From positions 1 through 29,131 of IMG/VR virus record IMGVR_UViG_3300023178_001900: DNA of 29,131 nucleotides. One strand, written 5' to 3'. Within the stretch, counting starts at the first letter, position 1; each line of letters begins with the position of its first letter. Positions 4,815-29,131 of the stretch are shown one piece after another. Both the position numbers and the translations under genes were made by a program. A model generated the notes under the pieces. That model made no database searches, was not told the origin of the DNA, and saw only the letters and a program-made list of their open reading frames with translations. Source of the stretch: a virus.

Positions 4815-7800
4815 TTAAAGGCCTGCTATTTCACCGGTGTTTTTCAAGCGTAGCGGAATGTAAATAAATTCAACTGCTTTCACTGGCTCAATCGCAATAT
4901 CTACATAAAGCTCGTTACGATCAATTCTATTTGGCGTGTTGTTTGATTCATCACACACAACTAGGAAGTCATAAAGTGCTCTCTGTCCCACAAGTTCTAA
5001 TAGTAAACTATCGACCTGCTGTTTGATTTCATCTCTTGTAATCTTATCGTTTGGTTCAAACACATAAGGTTTAGCAAGTTTGTTAAGTTGACTACGTAAG
5101 TAGATAACCAAACGTGCAACGTTAATTCTATCTAGTGAACTAGCGTTTCTAGCACGAGTTTTCTGACCGTAGTTAACAAGTCCTGCACCTTGTAAGAATG
5201 TTACAGGGTTAACATTGTTTGAGTACAATGTATCACGCTGTCCTTCATTAAGTGCAACACTTACAAATTCGCCCTCAGCATCAATGTAACCTGCCGCTGA
5301 AGCATTAGTAATACCACCGCGTCTTGTACCTGCTGGTGCAAACCATGGATAACTAACTTGATCACTTAGTGCCATTGTTCTTAAGATACCGTGTGATGCT
5401 GGAACAACAATGTTGTTACCTGCGTTATCACTAGTATATAAGCTCGGATAGAACACACCTAAGTATTCATCTCTTGACACAAGCCCTTCGTCGTTGTCTT
5501 CAACTGCTAAATTAACGTTAGTTGCCCATTCGTTAATTGATGTTGCATCTGGTGTTAGTCTAAATGGACTATCGCCAACGATAAATGCAGTTAAGCCTCT
5601 GTCGTTGTTTAGTGCAATCATTTCACCAATTAGTTCTGGATAACCTGGACATGCCATTACGTTAAACAATCTTGATTCATCATCGCGAATTTCTTGATTA
5701 CTGTTAACCAATGCTTGTAGTCCTTGTACAACAACTTTACGCTGTGCCTTGCGACCAAATGTACCTGCACCGTTTTCTTGGTTAGCTGATTCAGTAACCC
5801 AACGGTGTGGATAGTAGCCATCCATTGATTCGTCGTTAAAGCGACCATTATCATTTGCTTTATCAATGTAGTTACGAACAAACTTCTTAACATTAAAGCC
5901 GCTACGTCTTAGATTCCAAAGCAACATACCTTTTGGATATAGTGCTGGATCTGGAGCATCTGGGTCTAAGAAGTTACTAGTAAGTAACGCATCAATGTCT
6001 GCCATTTTATCGCTAGTAGCACCACTTGATCCCCAACGTGCATCAGCAAATAAAATACCGTCTTCAGTAGTTTGGTCACCTGTGTCTAACAAATTCCATT
6101 TTGCTGTTGTAGCATTGTACTTGTAAATTGTTGGATAGTTTTCGATGTCCGAAGTATCAATCCAAATGTCGCCTGTTTTTAGTGCAGTGCCATCTGATTG
6201 ACCATCAGGCTCAGTTGCACTAACAATAGGACCTGCAGGATCAGTTTGTTCTGCTTCGTCTGCATCGTAGAATGGGCTAGTAGTATCTAAGTAACCTACC
6301 CATGTGCTACCATTATGAATCATAAGGTCTACCTCGTCAACAATTGAGTTATACCAAAGTTGTCCATCTGTCGCTAGTGCAGTTGGAGCATCTTCACTTG
6401 CTGTGTAAGAAAGTACTTTCCACTGTGTAGCAACAAAATCATTTGCTGTGTCACCTGCTGGTGCCGCATACAAATTAGGTGTACCGTTGTTAGCATCAAC
6501 ATATGCCGCAAAGCCGATATCGCCTAGTATGCCATCAGTGTCAAGTAATCTAAAGTCACCTGCTTGTGCATGACTAATAACAACTTTGTTTTGTGCGTTA
6601 ACTGTTGCACTTACATGCTCAAAGTCGCCGCCGTTGATTGCTTCTGCGATTGCTTCAGCGTCTACTGTTGCGTCAGTACCACCAATAGTAACGCTTACAG
6701 TAATTGCCGCTTTTAATGCCGCTTCGCCTGTGTCACTTTCTTGAATGCTAATTTGGTATGAACCTGCTCCAAGTCCTGTTGTAACAACATTACTTGTAAT
6801 TGAAGTAGGACCAGTTCCAACTCTGCTAAACAATTTAAAATCAAACTCTGCATCTGAATCTTCGCTGACGTTATATTGTGCGTACAGTGTGCCAACTGCA
6901 AGATTCTGTCCACCGCCAGTTTTATCTAACTGTGCGAGTGCTGTTGAGTTATTTTCATAAATTGGTGCCGCGTTGTCTACCCAAAGTTTAGTAGAATCAT
7001 TCCATTTCTTAACTCTTAGTTTTGCACCTAAGTTAGGATCTGTTGTTTTAAACCAAATAGATCCAGTCGGACGTGGTGCTGAGTCAGTTGACTTAAATGC
7101 TGGAATGCTAGTATGTGGACCAATGTTTAGTTCAGGTGCCCAATAACTACCTGCTGTAATTCCTAAGTCTGATAATGGAGTACCAGTGTCATTAGAAATA
7201 ATAATATCAGCAGTTGAGCTGTCTGATGGTGCCCAAGAACCGTCACTGTAAAGTGCTAGTTTGCTGTTAACTTTCTTAGCAGTTACGCCTGTTACGTTTG
7301 TTACTGCATTGATGTTAGCAACAAGTGCGTCAATGTCTGCACCCATTAAAATTCTTTCATCGTTTAATTGAATTGCATCTGAAGCAGTCAATGAACTCGG
7401 AGTAGCTGTACCTTGTACTGCAATCCAGGCTTTTTTCCAAGCACTTGAACCAACTTTAACCCAAGTATTGTCACCGTTTTTATAGTACAATCTGTTAAGT
7501 GTTGTAGTAGCAACTAGTACATAGTCACCAATTGAACCAACACTAGGCTTAGGATCAGAAGTAGCATCACTGCCTACTAGTTGTGTTTTATCTGTAATGA
7601 TTGTAGGAACTTTGTTAGTGAATGTTTGGCCGCCTGTTGCTGTAATAGCATTGCCGTTCCATTCAAAAAGACCTACTCTTGAAATCTGTGTGTCAAACCA
7701 AGAAGTACCATCTTCTGGATCTGCCGCAGGTGCGTCTGCAGATGCAACTAGTTGATTTGTATCAACGTCTGCTCTTACAACATATGCTCTGTTGCTTACG

Positions 7801-8105
7801 CCTAAGAATGAGTAAGCCGCTTGTAAACCGTATTCGTTTAACTCGCCTGCGTGAATTGGATTATTGTTGTTATCTGTTAAAAAAGTTGGATCTCCAAATA
7901 AATCCGCTAATTCTCTCTGTGAAGTAACTAGGTAAGGTTTGCCGGCGTTTGCTTTTGTAGTTGCCGTTGCTGTGCCTGTTCCAGATGAATTTGTTTTGTC
8001 TTGTGCAGACGCTACAAAAATCATTGGAGTCATTCCTGGCTCAGCCGGGGTGTAAAAACTTTCGTCTATAACACTAACCTGTACTCCTGGTGATACTAAT
8101 GCCAT
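4815..8105 (-). CDS. 18: Contractile tail sheath protein gp18, with large insertion
   Basis: This 1096-residue protein is a tail sheath subunit. The start MALVSPGVQVSVIDES is the classic sheath N-terminus. The C-terminal region from about residue 725 carries the conserved core and polymerisation domain, including FNVMACPGYPELIGEM, YPWFAPAGTRRGGI, INVARLVIYLRSQL and a closing beta strand region (YVDIAIEPVKAVEFIYI). T4 gp18 is 659 residues. The excess lies between residues about 132 and 690, which hold five short modules of the type GDIWIDTS...YKYN...W (near 132, 193, 348, 581 and 645) and a Thr/Ala-rich immunoglobulin-like stretch (about 445-515). By analogy with T4, inserts here project outward from the sheath. 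An AGGAGAA ribosome-binding site and an AATAAATAC promoter precede it. gp19 follows directly. Confidence 0.93.
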   Translation of the reverse strand: MALVSPGVQVSVIDESFYTPAEPGMTPMIFVASAQDKTNSSGTGTATATTKANAGKPYLVTSQRELADLFGDPTFLTDNNNNPIHAGELNEYGLQAAYSFLGVSNRAYVVRADVDTNQLVASADAPAADPEDGTSWFDTQISRVGLFEWNGNAITATGGQTFTNKVPTIITDKTQLVGSDATSDPKPSVGSIGDYVLVATTTLNRLYYKNGDNTWVKVGSSAWKKAWIAVQGTATPSSLTASDAIQLNDERILMGADIDALVANINAVTNVTGVTAKKVNSKLALYSDGSWAPSDSSTADIIISNDTGTPLSDLGITAGSYWAPELNIGPHTSIPAFKSTDSAPRPTGSIWFKTTDPNLGAKLRVKKWNDSTKLWVDNAAPIYENNSTALAQLDKTGGGQNLAVGTLYAQYNVSEDSDAEFDFKLFSRVGTGPTSITSNVVTTGLGAGSYQISIQESDTGEAALKAAITVSVTIGGTDATVDAEAIAEAINGGDFEHVSATVNAQNKVVISHAQAGDFRLLDTDGILGDIGFAAYVDANNGTPNLYAAPAGDTANDFVATQWKVLSYTASEDAPTALATDGQLWYNSIVDEVDLMIHNGSTWVGYLDTTSPFYDADEAEQTDPAGPIVSATEPDGQSDGTALKTGDIWIDTSDIENYPTIYKYNATTAKWNLLDTGDQTTEDGILFADARWGSSGATSDKMADIDALLTSNFLDPDAPDPALYPKGMLLWNLRRSGFNVKKFVRNYIDKANDNGRFNDESMDGYYPHRWVTESANQENGAGTFGRKAQRKVVVQGLQALVNSNQEIRDDESRLFNVMACPGYPELIGEMIALNNDRGLTAFIVGDSPFRLTPDATSINEWATNVNLAVEDNDEGLVSRDEYLGVFYPSLYTSDNAGNNIVVPASHGILRTMALSDQVSYPWFAPAGTRRGGITNASAAGYIDAEGEFVSVALNEGQRDTLYSNNVNPVTFLQGAGLVNYGQKTRARNASSLDRINVARLVIYLRSQLNKLAKPYVFEPNDKITRDEIKQQVDSLLLELVGQRALYDFLVVCDESNNTPNRIDRNELYVDIAIEPVKAVEFIYIPLRLKNTGEIAGL

Positions 8106-13190: not shown

Positions 13191-13622
13191 ATGACAGATA
13201 CTATTTCTTGTAGCGGTGGGTTATTCTACTGCATCGAAACTAAAAGATTTTTGCTACTACATAGAACAAATCCTCGGACACCGGTTTGGGGACTAGTAGG
13301 CGGCACAGGTAATCAAGACGAAACACCCTGGACTACTCTTCAACGTGAAATTGAGGAGGAAATTGGTCCTTTGCCTGACATTAAAAAGACTATACCGCTC
13401 GAAACGTTTGTATCCAATGATGAAAAGTTTTTATTCTACACTTACCTTATAGTAACTTCAAAAGAATTTATTCCTGCCCTCAACGATGAGCATGACGGGT
13501 ATGCATGGGTAAGTTTTGGTAAATGGCCAAAGCCTTTACACAACGGATTAAAGAACACATTACAAAACAAAGCAAACCAACAAAAACTTAAAACAGTATT
13601 TGAAGTAATAGACTTACTATGA
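13191..13622 (+). CDS. Nudix hydrolase
   Basis: This 143-residue protein carries a complete Nudix box from Gly38 to Pro60. Glu44 and the core REIEEEIG (Arg52-Gly59) sit at the expected spacing (G-x5-E-x7-REUxEExGU). Nudix enzymes cleave nucleoside diphosphates linked to another group, such as nucleotide sugars, oxidised nucleotides or ADP-ribose compounds. The substrate cannot be read from this sequence. The strand preceding the box (RFLLLHRTN...VWGLVGG) resembles sugar-nucleotide and GDP-mannose type members, but this is weak. It starts 13 bases after gp15 with no clear ribosome-binding site. Its stop overlaps the HldE start (ATGA), so it is coupled to ADP-heptose synthesis. A role in ADP-heptose or ADP-sugar turnover is therefore possible, as is general nucleotide clean-up. 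Confidence 0.88.
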   Translation: MTDTISCSGGLFYCIETKRFLLLHRTNPRTPVWGLVGGTGNQDETPWTTLQREIEEEIGPLPDIKKTIPLETFVSNDEKFLFYTYLIVTSKEFIPALNDEHDGYAWVSFGKWPKPLHNGLKNTLQNKANQQKLKTVFEVIDLL

Positions 13623-14872
13623 TTAAAGTATACGGCGACATAATGCTCGACAGATGGATTATCGGTAATGCGTCTAGAATTAGTCCAGAGGCACCTGTTC
13701 CTGTGCTAAAAGAAAACAGCCAAGAAATAGCACCAGGAGGTGCAGCCAATCTTGCACTCAATATTGCTAGTTTAAACGGAAATATAGGAGTGTTTGGATC
13801 TATTGCATCTGATAAAGAAGGTTATAGCATAATTGATTGTTTTAAAGATTATGAAAAAATTGACTTTCAAGCATCATTAGATTCTACAATGACAACAACT
13901 AAAAATAGATTAGTTGGCCAAGGTGGTCAACATATTATGCGTTGGGATCGTGAAGAAAAATACAAGGGTGTAGAAGCATTACATAGACTTTTAAACAATT
14001 TATCTTCTGATGATTTAGTTTGCGTAAGTGATTATGCTAAAGGCACAGTGCGTAATAATACTATAGAAAAAATTCTAAAACGTAATTGTAAAGTTTTAGT
14101 TGATCCAAAACAAGGTCCAGAAGTTTATAGAAATGCATTTCTTGTTAAACCAAATATGAAGGAATATACTGAATGGTTTGGCGAATTTAGAAAAGAAATT
14201 GCACTTGTAAAATTAAAAGAGTACGGCTGGAAATATCTTATAGTTACTGACGGTGCTAATGGGTTACACGTAATCAGCGATGATATGAAGTACGAACATT
14301 ACCAAGAGCCAGCACACGAAGTTGCAGATGTTACTGGTGCAGGAGACACTGTGCTTGCTGTGCTTGCATACTATATAGAACAAGGATTAGACGTATTTGA
14401 AGCGGCTAAACATGCTTGCTATGCCGCCGCAAGAGCAGTTGAACACAGAGGTGTTCATGTGGTAACACATGAAGATTTGAAGCAAGACATTGTGTTTACC
14501 AATGGTTGCTTTGATATTTTACACAAAGGACATTTAGAATTATTACAATACGCAAAAGGCCTTGGAAAACGTCTTGTAGTAGGTCTAAATAGCGATTTAA
14601 GCGTGAAAAAACTAAAAGGTAACAATAGACCTTATAACGATGAAAATACACGTTATAACAATCTTTTGTCTTTACCTTTTGTTGATGATGTGTTATTATA
14701 TGATGATAATACGCCTTACGAACTAATTAAAAAGATTCAGCCTAGTATAATTGTTAAGGGCGGCGATTATACATTTGACACGGTTGTAGGCAACGATTTA
14801 GCAAATGTTGTTATATTTCCAACAGTAGAAGGATATAGCACAACAAAGACATTAGAGAATATGCATGAGTGA
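13619..14872 (+). CDS. hldE: Bifunctional heptose 7-phosphate kinase / heptose 1-phosphate adenylyltransferase
   Basis: This 417-residue protein has the two HldE domains in the normal order. Residues 1 to about 290 are a PfkB/ribokinase-type kinase: GDIMLDRWIIGNASRISPEA, GGAANLALN, VKPNMKEYTEW, and the anion-hole motif VTGAGDTVLAVLA. Residues about 295-417 are a cytidylyltransferase-like nucleotidyltransferase: VFTNGCFDILHKGHLELL (the HxGH motif is HKGH), VGLNSDLSVKKLKG, RPYNDENTR, and IVKGGDYT. In bacteria HldE makes D-glycero-beta-D-manno-heptose 1,7-bisphosphate and, after dephosphorylation, ADP-D-glycero-D-manno-heptose. E. coli HldE is 477 residues, so this is trimmed, mostly in the linker and loops. 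All visible catalytic motifs are kept. It overlaps the Nudix gene (ATGA) and HldD (8 bases). Confidence 0.93.
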   Translation: MIKVYGDIMLDRWIIGNASRISPEAPVPVLKENSQEIAPGGAANLALNIASLNGNIGVFGSIASDKEGYSIIDCFKDYEKIDFQASLDSTMTTTKNRLVGQGGQHIMRWDREEKYKGVEALHRLLNNLSSDDLVCVSDYAKGTVRNNTIEKILKRNCKVLVDPKQGPEVYRNAFLVKPNMKEYTEWFGEFRKEIALVKLKEYGWKYLIVTDGANGLHVISDDMKYEHYQEPAHEVADVTGAGDTVLAVLAYYIEQGLDVFEAAKHACYAAARAVEHRGVHVVTHEDLKQDIVFTNGCFDILHKGHLELLQYAKGLGKRLVVGLNSDLSVKKLKGNNRPYNDENTRYNNLLSLPFVDDVLLYDDNTPYELIKKIQPSIIVKGGDYTFDTVVGNDLANVVIFPTVEGYSTTKTLENMHE

Positions 14873-15719
14873 AAAGAAGTATAACGGAAAGATTTTAATT
14901 ACAGGAGCTCGAGGATTTATTGGCCAAAACATGGTACAATATTTTCTTGCAAAAGATTATGATGTTGACGGTTTTGAATGGGTTCCTAACATTATTCCAG
15001 ACGTAACTCGTTATGATTGGGTAATACACTTAGGTGCTATCTCAGACACAACAGAACAAGATGTTGACAAAGTTTGGGAACAAAACTTTGAATTCACTAG
15101 TAGACTTATTCAAGTTTGTGATCAGTTTGGAGTTAACTTACAACTTGCTAGTACCAGTGCAGTATATGGTCCCGGGTATGACGGTTTTAAAGAAAATAGT
15201 AAATGTTTACCGCAAACCCCATATGCTTGGAGCAAGTATCTAATTGATAAAAGTTTGCGTGATGTAAGTTTTGAAAACTTTACTTCTCTTGTACAGTCAT
15301 TCAGATACTTCAATGTTTATGGTCCGGGTGAAGGTCACAAAGGCGATCAAATGAGTATGGTTAGTAAGTGGCAGAAACAAGCATCTCATGAAGGAAAAGT
15401 AAAGGTTTTTGAAAACAGCGATACTTTTCATAGAGATTTAATTTGTGTATATGATGTTTGTAGAATACATCATTTAATGATGAACAAAGATGTAAGTGGC
15501 ATTTTTAATGTTGGAACCGGAGAAGCAAACAATCTAGAAGAAGTTGCTAATACTATTGCAAAAAAATATAATGCAGAAGTAGAAACAATCAAAATGCCTC
15601 ATCATTTACAGGGTCAATATCAACCGTTTACACAAGCAGACACAGAAAAACTTTTAGAGCAGATAGGTGATCATAAGTTTTGGACAGTAGAGGAATACCT
15701 AAATGATCAAAGTGTATGA
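14865..15719 (+). CDS. hldD: ADP-glyceromanno-heptose 6-epimerase
   Basis: This 284-residue short-chain dehydrogenase/reductase of the extended type has a Rossmann motif TGARGFIGQN near the start, a substrate Ser in LASTSAVYGPG, and the catalytic YxxxK as YAWSK. The HldD signature is FRYFNVYGPGEGHKG; E. coli HldD has nearly the same block. In bacteria HldD converts ADP-D-glycero- to ADP-L-glycero-D-manno-heptose, the donor for inner-core LPS heptose. E. coli HldD is 310 residues. The start ATG lies inside the HldE 3' end, which implies coupled translation. A general UDP-sugar epimerase is the main alternative, but the neighbour HldE and the GEGHKG block argue strongly for HldD. Confidence 0.88.
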   Translation: MSEKKYNGKILITGARGFIGQNMVQYFLAKDYDVDGFEWVPNIIPDVTRYDWVIHLGAISDTTEQDVDKVWEQNFEFTSRLIQVCDQFGVNLQLASTSAVYGPGYDGFKENSKCLPQTPYAWSKYLIDKSLRDVSFENFTSLVQSFRYFNVYGPGEGHKGDQMSMVSKWQKQASHEGKVKVFENSDTFHRDLICVYDVCRIHHLMMNKDVSGIFNVGTGEANNLEEVANTIAKKYNAEVETIKMPHHLQGQYQPFTQADTEKLLEQIGDHKFWTVEEYLNDQSV

Positions 15720-25514: not shown

Positions 25515-25523
25515 GTATTTATC
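25515..25523 (-). promoter_or_regulatory. Late promoter GATAAATAC for the fibre operon
   Basis: The minus strand reads GATAAATAC. Its GA and first T are also part of the TGA stop of the GmhB-like gene. A leader with TAGGAG follows before the ATG at 25497. Confidence 0.7.
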
Positions 25524-26088
25524 AACGCAACGGATTTAATGTGTTTGCAAAATCTAACAGTGTGTCGTAAACCTCAGTTTGTTTTTTCAAATCTTTGTTA
25601 GCAAATGACTTTAATTTTTCTACTGTTTCCTGTCCATGCCCTGTTTTGACTAATACGGGTCGTGCTTTCGCCTTTACAGCCGCCTTAAGATCGGATATCT
25701 TGTCACCTACATATACCCCGTTTTTCCAATCCACTCCAATTTCGTCGGCGGCTCTTTTAAACATTCCTATGTTAGGTTTGGCGTAGATATCTTCTTTTAA
25801 ATTTGTTGTTGCGTAATAAAGACCGTTGATGTTTTTGCAGCCGGCTTTTCCTAATAACTCTAACATATAATTATGTATAATATCTACATCTGCAGGATCC
25901 ATTAATCCTTTCATAATACCTGCTTGATTTGTAAGGATGACAACATCGTATCCCTTTTCTCTCATCATTTTAATTGCTTCTAAACTTCCTGGAATTGGTT
26001 CAAAGTCTGCCTTATTAGTTACATAGGTTCCTTTATCAATATTAATTGTTCCATCTCTATCTAATCCAACTACTGGAGTTTTAATCAT
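25522..26088 (-). CDS. gmhB: HAD phosphatase, GmhB-like (heptose bisphosphatase candidate)
   Basis: This 188-residue phosphatase of the HAD-IIIA type has the nucleophile motif GLDRDGTIN (Asp10 and Asp12), motif II as ILTNQAG, a Lys in the KPNIGMF motif, and motif IV as YVGDKISDLKAA. The overall length and the DRDGTIN start fit GmhB, which removes the 7-phosphate from heptose 1,7-bisphosphate between the two HldE steps. E. coli GmhB also has a zinc loop with three Cys and one His just before the KP motif. Here that loop has no Cys at all, so the zinc site is missing. A histidinol-phosphatase-like or other sugar bisphosphatase is the alternative. HldE and HldD in the same window favour the heptose role. 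It overlaps the SGNH gene by 8 bases. Confidence 0.75.
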   Translation of the reverse strand: MIKTPVVGLDRDGTINIDKGTYVTNKADFEPIPGSLEAIKMMREKGYDVVILTNQAGIMKGLMDPADVDIIHNYMLELLGKAGCKNINGLYYATTNLKEDIYAKPNIGMFKRAADEIGVDWKNGVYVGDKISDLKAAVKAKARPVLVKTGHGQETVEKLKSFANKDLKKQTEVYDTLLDFANTLNPLR

Positions 26089-26914
26089 CTGACCATCCTA
26101 TTTTTGTTGTATTCTGTTCTATCCAGCCTAGTGTTTGTAAGTCTGTAGGCTCAGCGGTTACTAATTTTTCTTGATATTCTTCTGCAAGTTCAACTACATC
26201 ATTACTTAATTTGTCTATGCCTAGATCACTTAAAATATGTTCTTCTAGATAATGTGCATGTTCAAAAGGCAATGGGTGCATCTCTGGACGAGCTCTACTA
26301 GCAAAATCTGTAACTAACGGACGACTGTGTATGTATTCTTCATCGCCTTCTGCCCAGCCAATCCAGGGCATTATTGCTGGCTTGTCCAGTTTTAAATAAT
26401 CTTTATATTGGTTAAGTATGCCCGGAATATCATCATATTCTAACGGAGTATCATGATTTAAAATTTTATCTTCTTTTATAAAATCAGAAAAAGCAAAGTA
26501 AATTGTCTTGCATCCTCTTTCTTTTAGCATTGTTTTAACACTACTAATCATTGCACAGTCACGCATTGTCATATGTATTGCATCTGCCCATTGATACTGA
26601 CTCTTGTATTGGAATGCATTTAGATCTAATGGCTGATCGTGTAACTGGCCTCTGTATATTCCTCCAGCCAAGTGCCAGCCGTGTCCTTCAATGAATCGAT
26701 CATCTCTAAACATTCCTGTGAATTGAACTATAACTATGTCATCTTTATTAAAATGATAGATCGAATCTGCCTCCCAGATCCGTGTAAAGATGTATTGATT
26801 GCCTGCACCAAGACGACCCCAATTTTGTCCGGTGCCGGTTTGTTTTATAAGAAGATCTGCCCAAGTAGGGTAAAAGAATTGTGTTAAACTGCAACCAAAT
26901 GTAAACAATCTCAT
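26081..26914 (-). CDS. SGNH/GDSL-like hydrolase
   Basis: This 277-residue protein starts MRLFTFGCSLTQ. Ser9 in GCSLT sits where SGNH esterases keep their nucleophile, though the usual GDS is GCS. NWGRLGAGNQYIFTRIW supplies the Gly and Asn blocks, and MHPLPFEHAHYLEE near residue 215 supplies a candidate catalytic His. Family members remove acyl groups from carbohydrates or lipids. From memory, the FGCSxTQ...PTWADLL type is common in marine phages and is not experimentally assigned. It shares an ATGA overlap with the halogenase and an 8-base overlap with the GmhB-like gene, so all three are co-translated. An acetyl-sugar esterase, or an acyltransferase acting on the same glycan, is a reasonable inference. 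Confidence 0.72.
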   Translation of the reverse strand: MRLFTFGCSLTQFFYPTWADLLIKQTGTGQNWGRLGAGNQYIFTRIWEADSIYHFNKDDIVIVQFTGMFRDDRFIEGHGWHLAGGIYRGQLHDQPLDLNAFQYKSQYQWADAIHMTMRDCAMISSVKTMLKERGCKTIYFAFSDFIKEDKILNHDTPLEYDDIPGILNQYKDYLKLDKPAIMPWIGWAEGDEEYIHSRPLVTDFASRARPEMHPLPFEHAHYLEEHILSDLGIDKLSNDVVELAEEYQEKLVTAEPTDLQTLGWIEQNTTKIGWSDD

Positions 26915-28368
26915 CTTATTTTTCTTACCAAACTAATAAATTCTTTATGGGGAATCTTTGGAAACTTGTTGTAATCATCACTGATTGCTTCTCTAGTTAG
27001 TTTACATAAGTTTTTAATGTCATCTGGTATTAAATCATATTGTTGCTTTATTGATTCCTTGTTTAAAAGTCCTAATCCTGCAAGTACTAAAACATAGTTG
27101 TTTGCACCAAATAACTTATAACCTTCGCCGCCAAAGTCTGCTTCGATAGGCATTCTATTTTTCCAAATAGGAAGCCAGCGTTCTAAATTAGGTGGTAATG
27201 GTAAATTTTTCACTGCCTTCCAAAATTCTGTATCTTCTCTTTCTGTAACGTAATGTAATGCAATAAAGTCTCGAATGTCTAAAAGTATTTCCTCAACTTC
27301 TTTATTGTAAACATCAATTACACCATCATTGTAATTTACAATCCTGTTTACTAGCATAAAGGCTTGTTGTATACTTGTGCCAATTGATGTGGCTTCTAGT
27401 GGCTCTACAAAACTTGCACTTAGTCCAACAGCAACACAATTTCCAATCCACACACGATCCAAGCATCCGGGATCAAATTCAATATGTTTGCTTATTTCAA
27501 TATCGTGTCCGAGATAGTTTTCAACTTCTGCTTTAGCTTCTTCGACAGTAATATAATTTTTGTCAAAGATATATCCGTTTCCTTTTCTCCCCCAGACAGG
27601 TATACGGAACATCCACCCTGCATCCATTGCTCTAGCAAGAGTCCACATAGGATACTCTTCCTCATCTCCTGTAGGAAATACTATAGCTGAGTTCATTTTT
27701 AGATAGTCTGAGTAACTTTGCCATTTAGCTCCAAGTTTTCCAATTAGTACTTTTTTAAAGCCAGTTGAATCAATATAAAAATCATATTTGTATTCTCTAA
27801 GACTGCTTTTTATTGTTGCAATCTCGCCATCTTCAATTTCTACATCTATAATAGTATCATCGAACACTGTAATATCAAATCTATCGGCAAGATTATGCAA
27901 GTATTCGTTTAACTTATGAGTGTTAAAGTGAAACTGTACTACTGGAAACTCTTTTAATGCTTCTTCAATGTTGTCATCAAATAGAACTTCGCTATTCCAT
28001 GCTTCTGGTGATGTCATCGGAAGATCTTTTAGATATAGTTCTGCATACTGTGCAGGATATTCATGATAAGTTTTTGAATACGCACCTTCAACTGTTTGCA
28101 TATAAGGGCGTTCCGACCAATTTTCAAACATGATGCCAGCTTTAAATGTTGCATCGCATGCCTTTAACATCTCGGGTTTGTCTATATCCATAAACTTTGC
28201 AAACTCATGCCAGTGTTCAGTTGAACCTTCACCCACACCGATGATACCTAACTTACTTGATTCGATAAGATCGATGTTGAAATTAGGAAAACTCTTTTTT
28301 AAAATAAGTGCAGTAACAAAGCCAGCAGTACCACCGCCAACAACACATATAGATTTTGGACACTTCAT
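26911..28368 (-). CDS. Flavin-dependent tryptophan-halogenase-family enzyme
   Basis: This 485-residue protein is a full-length member of the tryptophan halogenase family (usually 500-540). The FAD-binding motif is GGGTAG (residues 11-16). GVGEGST (44-50) follows, and the catalytic Lys is in ATFKAG (Lys76). WMFRIP (252-257) stands where the family has WxWxIP, so the second Trp is Phe. FVEPLEATSIG carries the Glu (Glu322) that partners the Lys. Such enzymes use FADH2, oxygen and a halide to halogenate an electron-rich ring. A cyanophage enzyme, VirX1, has been described as an iodinase with broad substrates, and this looks like a relative. No flavin reductase is seen here. The gene is first in an operon with the SGNH and GmhB-like genes. 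TATAAATAC lies four bases before the ATG. Confidence 0.9.
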   Translation of the reverse strand: MKCPKSICVVGGGTAGFVTALILKKSFPNFNIDLIESSKLGIIGVGEGSTEHWHEFAKFMDIDKPEMLKACDATFKAGIMFENWSERPYMQTVEGAYSKTYHEYPAQYAELYLKDLPMTSPEAWNSEVLFDDNIEEALKEFPVVQFHFNTHKLNEYLHNLADRFDITVFDDTIIDVEIEDGEIATIKSSLREYKYDFYIDSTGFKKVLIGKLGAKWQSYSDYLKMNSAIVFPTGDEEEYPMWTLARAMDAGWMFRIPVWGRKGNGYIFDKNYITVEEAKAEVENYLGHDIEISKHIEFDPGCLDRVWIGNCVAVGLSASFVEPLEATSIGTSIQQAFMLVNRIVNYNDGVIDVYNKEVEEILLDIRDFIALHYVTEREDTEFWKAVKNLPLPPNLERWLPIWKNRMPIEADFGGEGYKLFGANNYVLVLAGLGLLNKESIKQQYDLIPDDIKNLCKLTREAISDDYNKFPKIPHKEFISLVRKIR

Positions 28369-28371
28369 GCA

Positions 28372-28380
28372 GTATTTATA
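28372..28380 (-). promoter_or_regulatory. Late promoter TATAAATAC at the halogenase start
   Basis: This has the exact T4 late octamer TATAAATA plus C. TGC and then the ATG follow at once, so little or no 5' leader is possible. It is the best match to the T4 consensus in the window. Confidence 0.65.
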
Positions 28381-28414
28381 GGTGCCAGGACTAAGATCTA
28401 CAGATATTGGTATT

Positions 28415-28423
28415 TGTAAATAC
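28415..28423 (+). promoter_or_regulatory. Late-promoter-like TGTAAATAC before the oxygenase-like gene
   Basis: TGTAAATAC is followed by TTTC and the ATG at 28428. The region GTATTTGTAAATAC is nearly palindromic (6-bp arms). It faces away from the halogenase promoter 35 bases to the left. Confidence 0.5.
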
Positions 28424-28427
28424 TTTC

Positions 28428-29039
28428 ATGCAAACAAATATTACATCAAGTCCAATTGTTTCGTGTGAAGTTGACAGATTACTAATACACAACCACGAAC
28501 AAACTAAGATTAAACTTTTAAATCTAATCGAAGACATTTATAAAAGTAATATTAATTACAATACAGAACATCATGCCGAGCTTTGGCAAAGTCCGCCTGG
28601 GTTGCAAACAGTTACAAGTTTCGAAATGTTTTGCGAAAGTCCTGAAATGAGAACTTACTCAGAACTTTTAATTAACAGATACAAGATTAAGCCAACTCAT
28701 ACTATAGCAGTAACCAATTTATGGGTAAGTATTACTCCGCCAGGTAGTTTAAAGATGCCTAAGCGTTACACAAACGCTATTGCAACCGGCACTTACTTTC
28801 TACAGACACCAAATGAAAACGCAAGTATAAATTTTAAAAAACCTATTCCGCAAGAATGGTACAAAAAAGTAGAAGACCCGTTTAATAGAACAGAATGGAA
28901 TAGTATTGAAACACAATTAGCAATGGAAGAAGGGTACATGTATATATGGCCTAGTTACTTAGAAACATATACTACAACAAATGTATCTAATAATTCAAGA
29001 ATTTCAATTGACTTTACATTAGATGTGGTGCATAAATGA
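28428..29039 (+). CDS. 2OG-Fe(II) oxygenase-fold protein lacking metal ligands
   Basis: This encodes 203 residues from the ATG at 28428. The frame extends to a TTG at 28407, but that would place the start inside the promoter-like site. The C-terminal half has the layout of a putative 2-oxoglutarate oxygenase family (2OG-FeII_Oxy_5 type): NLWVSITPPG, then AIATGTYFLQTP, then EEGYMYIWPSYLETYTT, then NSRISIDFTLDV. In active members the first block is followed by a His-x-His or His-x-Asp pair and the PSxL block by a His. Here the corresponding positions read KMPKRYTNA and YLETYT, with no His. The Arg of the RISI strand, which binds 2-oxoglutarate, is kept. It may be a scaffold, or it may have a different activity. 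It overlaps the next start (ATGA). Confidence 0.6.
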   Translation: MQTNITSSPIVSCEVDRLLIHNHEQTKIKLLNLIEDIYKSNINYNTEHHAELWQSPPGLQTVTSFEMFCESPEMRTYSELLINRYKIKPTHTIAVTNLWVSITPPGSLKMPKRYTNAIATGTYFLQTPNENASINFKKPIPQEWYKKVEDPFNRTEWNSIETQLAMEEGYMYIWPSYLETYTTTNVSNNSRISIDFTLDVVHK

Positions 29040-29131
29040 ATATAGATAAATTATTTGAAGAAAATAACAAAAATCATTTTAGTTTTGTAACACTGTTTAC
29101 AAAAAACGTAAACAGGTTATTGAAAGATTAT
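29036..29131 (+). CDS. Start of a downstream gene (partial, unknown)
   Basis: An ATG at 29036 overlaps the TGA of the oxygenase-like gene (ATGA). The frame stays open for 32 codons to the window edge: it begins MNIDKLFEENNKN, followed by FSFVTLFTKNVNR. The composition is Asn/Lys-rich. Too little is present to name it. Coupling suggests that it acts with the preceding gene. Confidence 0.6.
   Translation, partial: MNIDKLFEENNKNHFSFVTLFTKNVNRLLKDY

Follow-up and report, generated by a model that had tools for sequence, protein, structure and literature searches.

An oxygenase-family gene beside a halogenase gene

The stretch of DNA analysed here (the window) is a virus record of 29,131 bases whose gene content, by our reading of its ORFs, appears to include tail-type structural genes, as in T4-like marine phages. 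The ORF studied here lies at the right end, begins with ATG and encodes 203 amino acids before its stop codon (Table 1). The product matches PF13759 (2OG-FeII_Oxy_5) above the gathering score (39.1 bits against a cut-off of 27, E 1e-9, residues 98-196), which bears out the assignment to a PF13759-type 2-oxoglutarate (2OG) oxygenase family made in a preliminary description of this DNA; no other Pfam family was matched at E up to 10. The best match in PHROGs was phrog_81, 2OG-Fe(II) oxygenase (E 8.9e-14), and NCBIfam TIGR02466 scored 53.9 bits, under its cut-off of 62.5. A tblastn search (E up to 10) matched 160 phage records, many of them weakly; the 60 listed, with identities of 21-32%, came from cyanophages, pelagiphages and marine viruses, where the annotation is 2OG oxygenase, phytanoyl-CoA dioxygenase or hypothetical protein.

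An AlphaFold2 model built with a 36-row alignment (pLDDT 91.7, pTM 0.86) has the double-stranded beta-helix fold of Fe(II)/2OG oxygenases. The closest solved folds among the matches listed were the PF13759-like proteins 3bvc from Roseovarius (Z 19.3, 190 residues, rmsd 3.1) and 2rg4 from Oceanicola (Z 18.8), and the next in that list were a prolyl 4-hydroxylase and other 2OG enzymes. As the preliminary description had proposed, the enzyme fold is retained, according to the model.

The gene also faces away from a halogenase gene, as had been noted, with 59 bp between the two. This neighbour is of the kind represented by the flavin-dependent halogenases of cyanophages (PrnA homologues). Each of the two genes is preceded by an element resembling the late promoter of T4. 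The string NNTAAATA occurs 22 times in the window, both strands counted, and 10 of these sites lie within 60 bases upstream of a gene, on its strand, against an expectation by area of 0.54 (the test used 24 hand-chosen genes, one of which, with start 10599, was listed 9 bases too far upstream, its element still being less than 60 bases away). The elements of the halogenase (TATAAATAC) and of the oxygenase homologue (TGTAAATAC) are two of the 10. We judged NNTAAATA by position because counts in the window were not clearly enriched for TGTAAATAC (2 found, 0.7 expected; 16 of 100 shuffles had as many) and not enriched for TATAAATA by itself (2 found, 3.2 expected). According to PMC2984593, the late promoter is NATAAATA in cyanophage S-PM2 and TATAAATA in T4; TGTAAATA differs by one base from each. 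Late expression of both genes is likely, to judge from their upstream sequence. A scan of 28300-28500 found no sigma-70 promoter (shuffle mean 0.7) and one terminator-like hit, on the minus strand at 28341-28321 (shuffle mean 0.0), inside the halogenase coding sequence.

Table 1. Coordinates of the genes, codons and elements discussed, in window numbering.
Feature	Position	Strand	Basis or remark
Pseudo-oxygenase ORF, PF13759 homologue without metal ligands	28428..29039	+	203 aa, double-stranded beta-helix fold (model)
Clade-specific N-terminal motif H23 ... N43-x-N45-x3-H49 ... GLQ (58-60)	28494..28607	+	alignments
K112 codon, position of first iron-ligand His	28761..28763	+	alignments
Y114 codon, position of second ligand (His/Asp/Glu)	28767..28769	+	alignments
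T180 codon, position of distal ligand His	28965..28967	+	alignments
R191 codon, retained putative 2OG-carboxylate arginine (RISI)	28998..29000	+	invariant alignment column
T4-late-promoter-like element TGTAAATAC	28415..28423	+	first base 13 before pseudo-oxygenase start
T4-late-promoter-like element TATAAATAC	28372..28380	-	first base 12 before halogenase start
Flavin-dependent (tryptophan) halogenase homologue, divergent neighbour	26911..28368	-	PF04820, 301.1 bits
Next gene (partner), start only, cut by window end	29036..29131	+	ATGA overlap; homologue of 143-144 aa partner in L016/L106/L108
Gene after halogenase, without Pfam match	26081..26914	-	ORFs with similar first residues in other loci
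GmhB-like heptose-bisphosphate phosphatase (HAD)	25522..26088	-	NCBIfam 142 bits, below cut-off 178
HldE-like heptose kinase/adenylyltransferase	13619..14872	+	NCBIfam 334 bits, below cut-off 521
HldD-like ADP-heptose epimerase	14865..15719	+	NCBIfam 232 bits, below cut-off 274.6

Loss of the metal ligands within one clade

The metal triad of Fe(II)/2OG oxygenases, H-x-(D/E/H)...H, is absent from the window protein. When the ligand columns were defined by alignment to 2rg4 and 3bvc, which unlike the window protein have H-x-H and a distal H at these positions, and to 12 phage relatives, the nearly invariant H112, H114 and H180 (window numbering) proved to be K, Y and T. The preliminary description had placed the replaced His-x-His/Asp pair and distal His within KMPKRYTNA and YLETYT, and had seen the arginine of RISI as kept; the codons confirm the former, and R191 indeed occupies a column that is invariant in the alignment with the 12 phage relatives. 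R191 is likely the arginine that binds the carboxylate of 2OG. The loss of the ligands is established by the sequence, and with all three gone Fe(II) chemistry should not occur. In profile match, size, fold and RIS-type C-terminal landmark the window protein is thus like the PF13759/TIGR02466/phrog_81 proteins of marine phages, but it differs from them in the replacement of all three metal ligands and in an N-terminal H23 / NxNxxxH / GLQ motif that belongs to its own clade.

Whether homologues keep the histidines had been named as a check on this reading, and most of them do. ORFs of the fetched loci with E below 1e-4 to a family profile (built with the window protein included) numbered 193, or 121 distinct proteins; the aligned columns read H-(H/D/E)...H in 113 of the 121, which as a whole are not a random sample of the family because the loci were fetched through the window gene, its neighbours or cyanophage hits. 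Two more (L173, L175) are gapped at the ligand columns and show HxD and a distal H by eye. The triad is absent from six, those of the window, L016/L017, L106/L107, L108, L018 and L066/L086, all of which are orthologues of the window gene. A later scan with patterns of the window's group added a seventh ligand-less protein, L198 (K, R and S at the ligand positions, Arg kept, by eye), and the locus L200, which has two intact, distant family members. Scores against PF13759 were 45.1 bits for L016, 33.7 for L166 (see below) and 16.4 for L018, and the L066 protein had no PF13759 match in Pfam.

These relatives came mostly through neighbouring genes and through clade alignments. A direct scan of viral contigs for close relatives of the window protein matched no pattern, and the 146 stretches matched in a scan of genome contigs with patterns from a five-row alignment included none that encodes a relative. 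Among literature titles and abstract starts we found neither a ligand-less phage 2OG oxygenase nor a pairing of a halogenase with a ligand-less oxygenase homologue.

Six ligand-less proteins form one clade with the proteins of L166 and L097 (support 100/98). L166 keeps HKE...H and the Arg; L097 has HMH and is a fragment of 110 residues, its contig ending before the third ligand. Inside the clade, one subgroup consists of the window, L016, L106 and L108 (100/98) and another of L018, L066 and L097 (100/99), and the position of L097, with its HxH, inside the second suggests that the ligands were lost twice. In a test on 15 rows (eight clade members and seven chosen relatives) from which the four key columns had been masked, a single ligand-less clade was mildly rejected (p-AU 0.033) and appeared in 0% of 200 bootstrap trees; grouping L018 and L066 without L097 was not rejected (p-AU 0.32), and the starred branches alone are compatible with one origin. 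Two independent losses are suggested, with the reservation that L097 is short and that its third ligand lies beyond the contig end.

Pairing with the halogenase and neighbouring genes

All seven distinct ligand-less proteins are encoded directly beside a divergent halogenase gene; besides the window, the loci with this arrangement include L016, L017, L018, L066, L086, L106, L107 and L108. The paired halogenases keep the GGGTAG FAD motif, the lysine of F/Y-K and WxFxIP, and they share a single branch, whose SH-aLRT of 89 is below the starred level. Trees of the halogenase and of the pseudo-oxygenase have the same order, ((L018,L066),(WIN,(L016,(L106,L108)))), the halogenase tree also having rows for L086, which carries a ligand-less gene, and for L001, which is the window. 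The pairing may reflect a single ancestral arrangement instead of a functional link.

We surveyed 76 halogenase ORFs, from 73 of the 76 loci of the halogenase query (L089-L091 fell under the score limit) and from L106-L108. The nearest ORF upstream of the halogenase is divergent in 13 cases and on the same strand in 62, and in one there is none in the locus. The 13 divergent ORFs comprise eight ligand-less genes, four intact family members (L068, L069, L080, L088) and one short unrelated ORF (L064). The four intact oxygenases come from another branch of their family and stand beside another halogenase lineage, so the slot does not require a dead one. In L080 and L068, where the intact gene in the slot is of PF13759 type, several ORFs that look halogenase-like from their first residues occur in one 11 kb stretch with several 2OG-oxygenase-like ORFs.

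Part of the pairing arises by construction, because it was the halogenase that led to L016-L018, L066 and L086. Two clade-pattern scans ran without the halogenase as query. The first returned the contigs of L016, L017, L018, L066 and L086 again, together with L097 and the intact, unrelated L098; the second returned those of L016, L017, L106, L107 and L108, together with L196 (whose protein is that of L108), L198 and L200. A halogenase is divergent beside each ligand-less gene in L194-L199, and the two scans gave no ligand-less gene without a halogenase, although one lying well away from any halogenase may have escaped; their outcome agrees with the pairing. Searched by record, the halogenase was found in six of eight, these being the six ligand-less records (five distinct proteins), and was not found in the records of the two ligand-keeping relatives, L166 and L097, an absence that is weak evidence because these are fragmentary contigs of 15 and 47 kb.

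On its other side the pseudo-oxygenase gene overlaps the next gene, whose first 32 codons, present in the window, match the N-terminus of a 143-144 aa protein in L016, L106 and L108. In L018 and L066 the gene at this place encodes a protein of 268-281 aa, and the partner matches its C-terminal half (hhalign probability 97.3, E 2.3e-11); the window's group has the half-length form and these two loci the full-length form. Neither Pfam nor PHROGs matched the partner significantly, and the matches of PF01075, in 2 of 9 records, were weak and below cut-off. A model of the long form, itself weak (pLDDT 75.7), resembles GT-B-type and other nucleotide-sugar enzymes, including heptosyltransferases, and DNPH1 with modest scores: Foldseek placed GT9/WaaC heptosyltransferases first (E 1.9e-4, TM 0.40), and a second aligner placed CalG1, DNPH1 and UDP-GlcNAc 2-epimerases first (Z 10-11), with heptosyltransferase II at 10.1. 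We tentatively regard the modelled fold as nucleotide-sugar-enzyme-like.

Beyond the halogenase, ORFs starting like the product of the following gene come after the halogenase in L016, L018, L066, L106 and L108 as well. The HldE-, HldD- and GmhB-like genes make up most of an ADP-heptose pathway within one phage fragment. HldE- and HldD-like genes were found in 7 of 9 records (the window and all six other ligand-less records searched), GmhB-like genes in 8 of 9 (the window, five of the six other ligand-less records and both ligand-keeping ones). A heptose-linked role is plausible on this gene content.

Radical SAM genes occur in the same region of L106, L107, L108, L016, L018 and L066, and several of these loci have genes that look, from the starts of their ORFs, amidinotransferase-like and carbamoyltransferase-like; the amidinotransferase-like ORFs had no significant match in Pfam. 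Lying beside tail genes, such genes are possibly a modification cluster. L018 also encodes, at 7361-8014, a heme-oxygenase-like protein (PF01126, 23.2 bits against a cut-off of 23), and ORFs with similar starts lie at L066:8167-8796 and L097:2062-2637.

Possible functions of the ligand-less protein

The closest informative pair of ligand-less genes, L106 and L108, has a dN/dS of 0.055 (differences at 69.0 of 111.2 synonymous sites and at 34.0 of 491.8 non-synonymous sites), and L066 and L086 differ by 4 synonymous and 0 non-synonymous changes in the gene. For the window and L016 dN/dS is 0.158 with synonymous sites near saturation, and in deeper pairs these sites are at or near saturation. Purifying selection has thus acted after the catalytic residues were lost, as is expected of a pseudoenzyme; its strength indicates that the gene is not decaying, and therefore that the protein does something.

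On balance we favour, by no wide measure of confidence, the reading that the protein is a pseudo-oxygenase, derived from an iron/2OG oxygenase and retained in a phage halogenase module for a function other than catalysis. Ligand loss, fold, selection, pairing with a single halogenase lineage, overlap with the partner gene and late-promoter-like elements are given by the sequence or the model. A role as a binding or partner protein, in a halogenase/heptose module that is probably expressed late, is what we infer as the best reading. The barrel would bind the substrate of its ancestor through the N-terminal motif, which ligand-keeping relatives have in common with it; alternatively, the pseudo-oxygenase would hold the halogenase, the coupled partner or both on that substrate, late in infection. 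The chemistry would be left to other proteins of the module. The ADP-heptose genes, together with the partner's fold, tentatively like that of nucleotide-sugar enzymes, suggest a heptose-containing glycan or a glycosylated virion protein as a candidate substrate.

The residues at the three ligand positions and at that of R191 are K/Y/T/R in the window protein, K/R/S/R in L016, L106 and L108, R/Y/L/A in L018 and H/Q/V/A in L066. K112 could speak against a pseudoenzyme and for new chemistry, since Lys is conserved at the first position in five of the seven ligand-less proteins (window, L016, L106, L108, L198). That the emptied pocket performs metal-free chemistry, with K112, and R191 beside it, in a catalytic or charge-stabilising part, is unlikely but the strongest of the alternatives: four of those five proteins have Arg at the second position, all five keep R191, and the strong purifying selection would fit a repurposed enzyme too. 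L018 and L066, however, occupy the same locus without these residues and have lost the Arg.

The N-terminal motif bears on a second alternative, in which the protein would still be a metalloenzyme through other ligands, such as H23 and H49. These histidines, like N43 and N45, are invariant in the seven aligned clade members and are present in L097 too. Yet H23 and H49 also occur in relatives that keep the usual ligands, L166 (His-x-Glu...His) and L097 (His-x-His, third ligand unseen), and therefore probably predate the ligand loss; the model, moreover, puts H23 at the start of the first helix and H49 in a loop. We regard this alternative as quite unlikely. Being common to ligand-keeping and ligand-less members, the motif fits a binding surface older than the loss, as the pseudo-oxygenase reading would have it.

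Very unlikely, in our view, is a metal-free binder of 2OG or another dicarboxylate, in which the Arg would anchor the carboxylate, the Lys would replace the charge of the metal, and the protein would sense or sequester 2OG. It has been proposed that cyanophages modulate the 2OG levels of their hosts, with 2OG oxygenases among the means (PMC3037559), and R191 is kept in five of the seven ligand-less proteins; but Ala replaces the Arg in L018 and L066, so 2OG binding cannot be the common function of the clade. A ligand-less member should not consume 2OG.

A decaying remnant or a sequencing or assembly artefact, which might account for the variable residues at the ligand positions (K/Y/T, K/R/S, R/Y/L, H/Q/V), is scarcely credible given seven distinct open ORFs at the same locus on separate contigs, and decay is contradicted by the selection signal.

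Non-catalytic proteins with the 2OG-oxygenase fold are known in eukaryotes, JARID2 being an example. Like the window protein they have kept the fold after iron chemistry was lost, but they are chromatin proteins of an unrelated lineage. A broader version of the pseudo-oxygenase reading is possible, if doubtful: in one lineage of marine phages an iron/2OG oxygenase would have turned, probably on more than one occasion, into a subunit without catalysis of its own, dedicated to a flavin-dependent halogenase module and supplying the halogenase with its substrate, the iron ligands being lost where it is paired with the halogenase and kept elsewhere. Many 2OG oxygenases and halogenases of marine phages have no assigned substrate. 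With a ligand-less member linked to a single halogenase lineage, binding and catalysis come apart in the family, and the two genes offer a testable pair; if the pseudo-oxygenase does bind the halogenase or its substrate, it would be a usable bait for the target of phage halogenation. For the family at large, the annotation '2OG-Fe(II) oxygenase' made from a profile alone need not mean an oxygenase.
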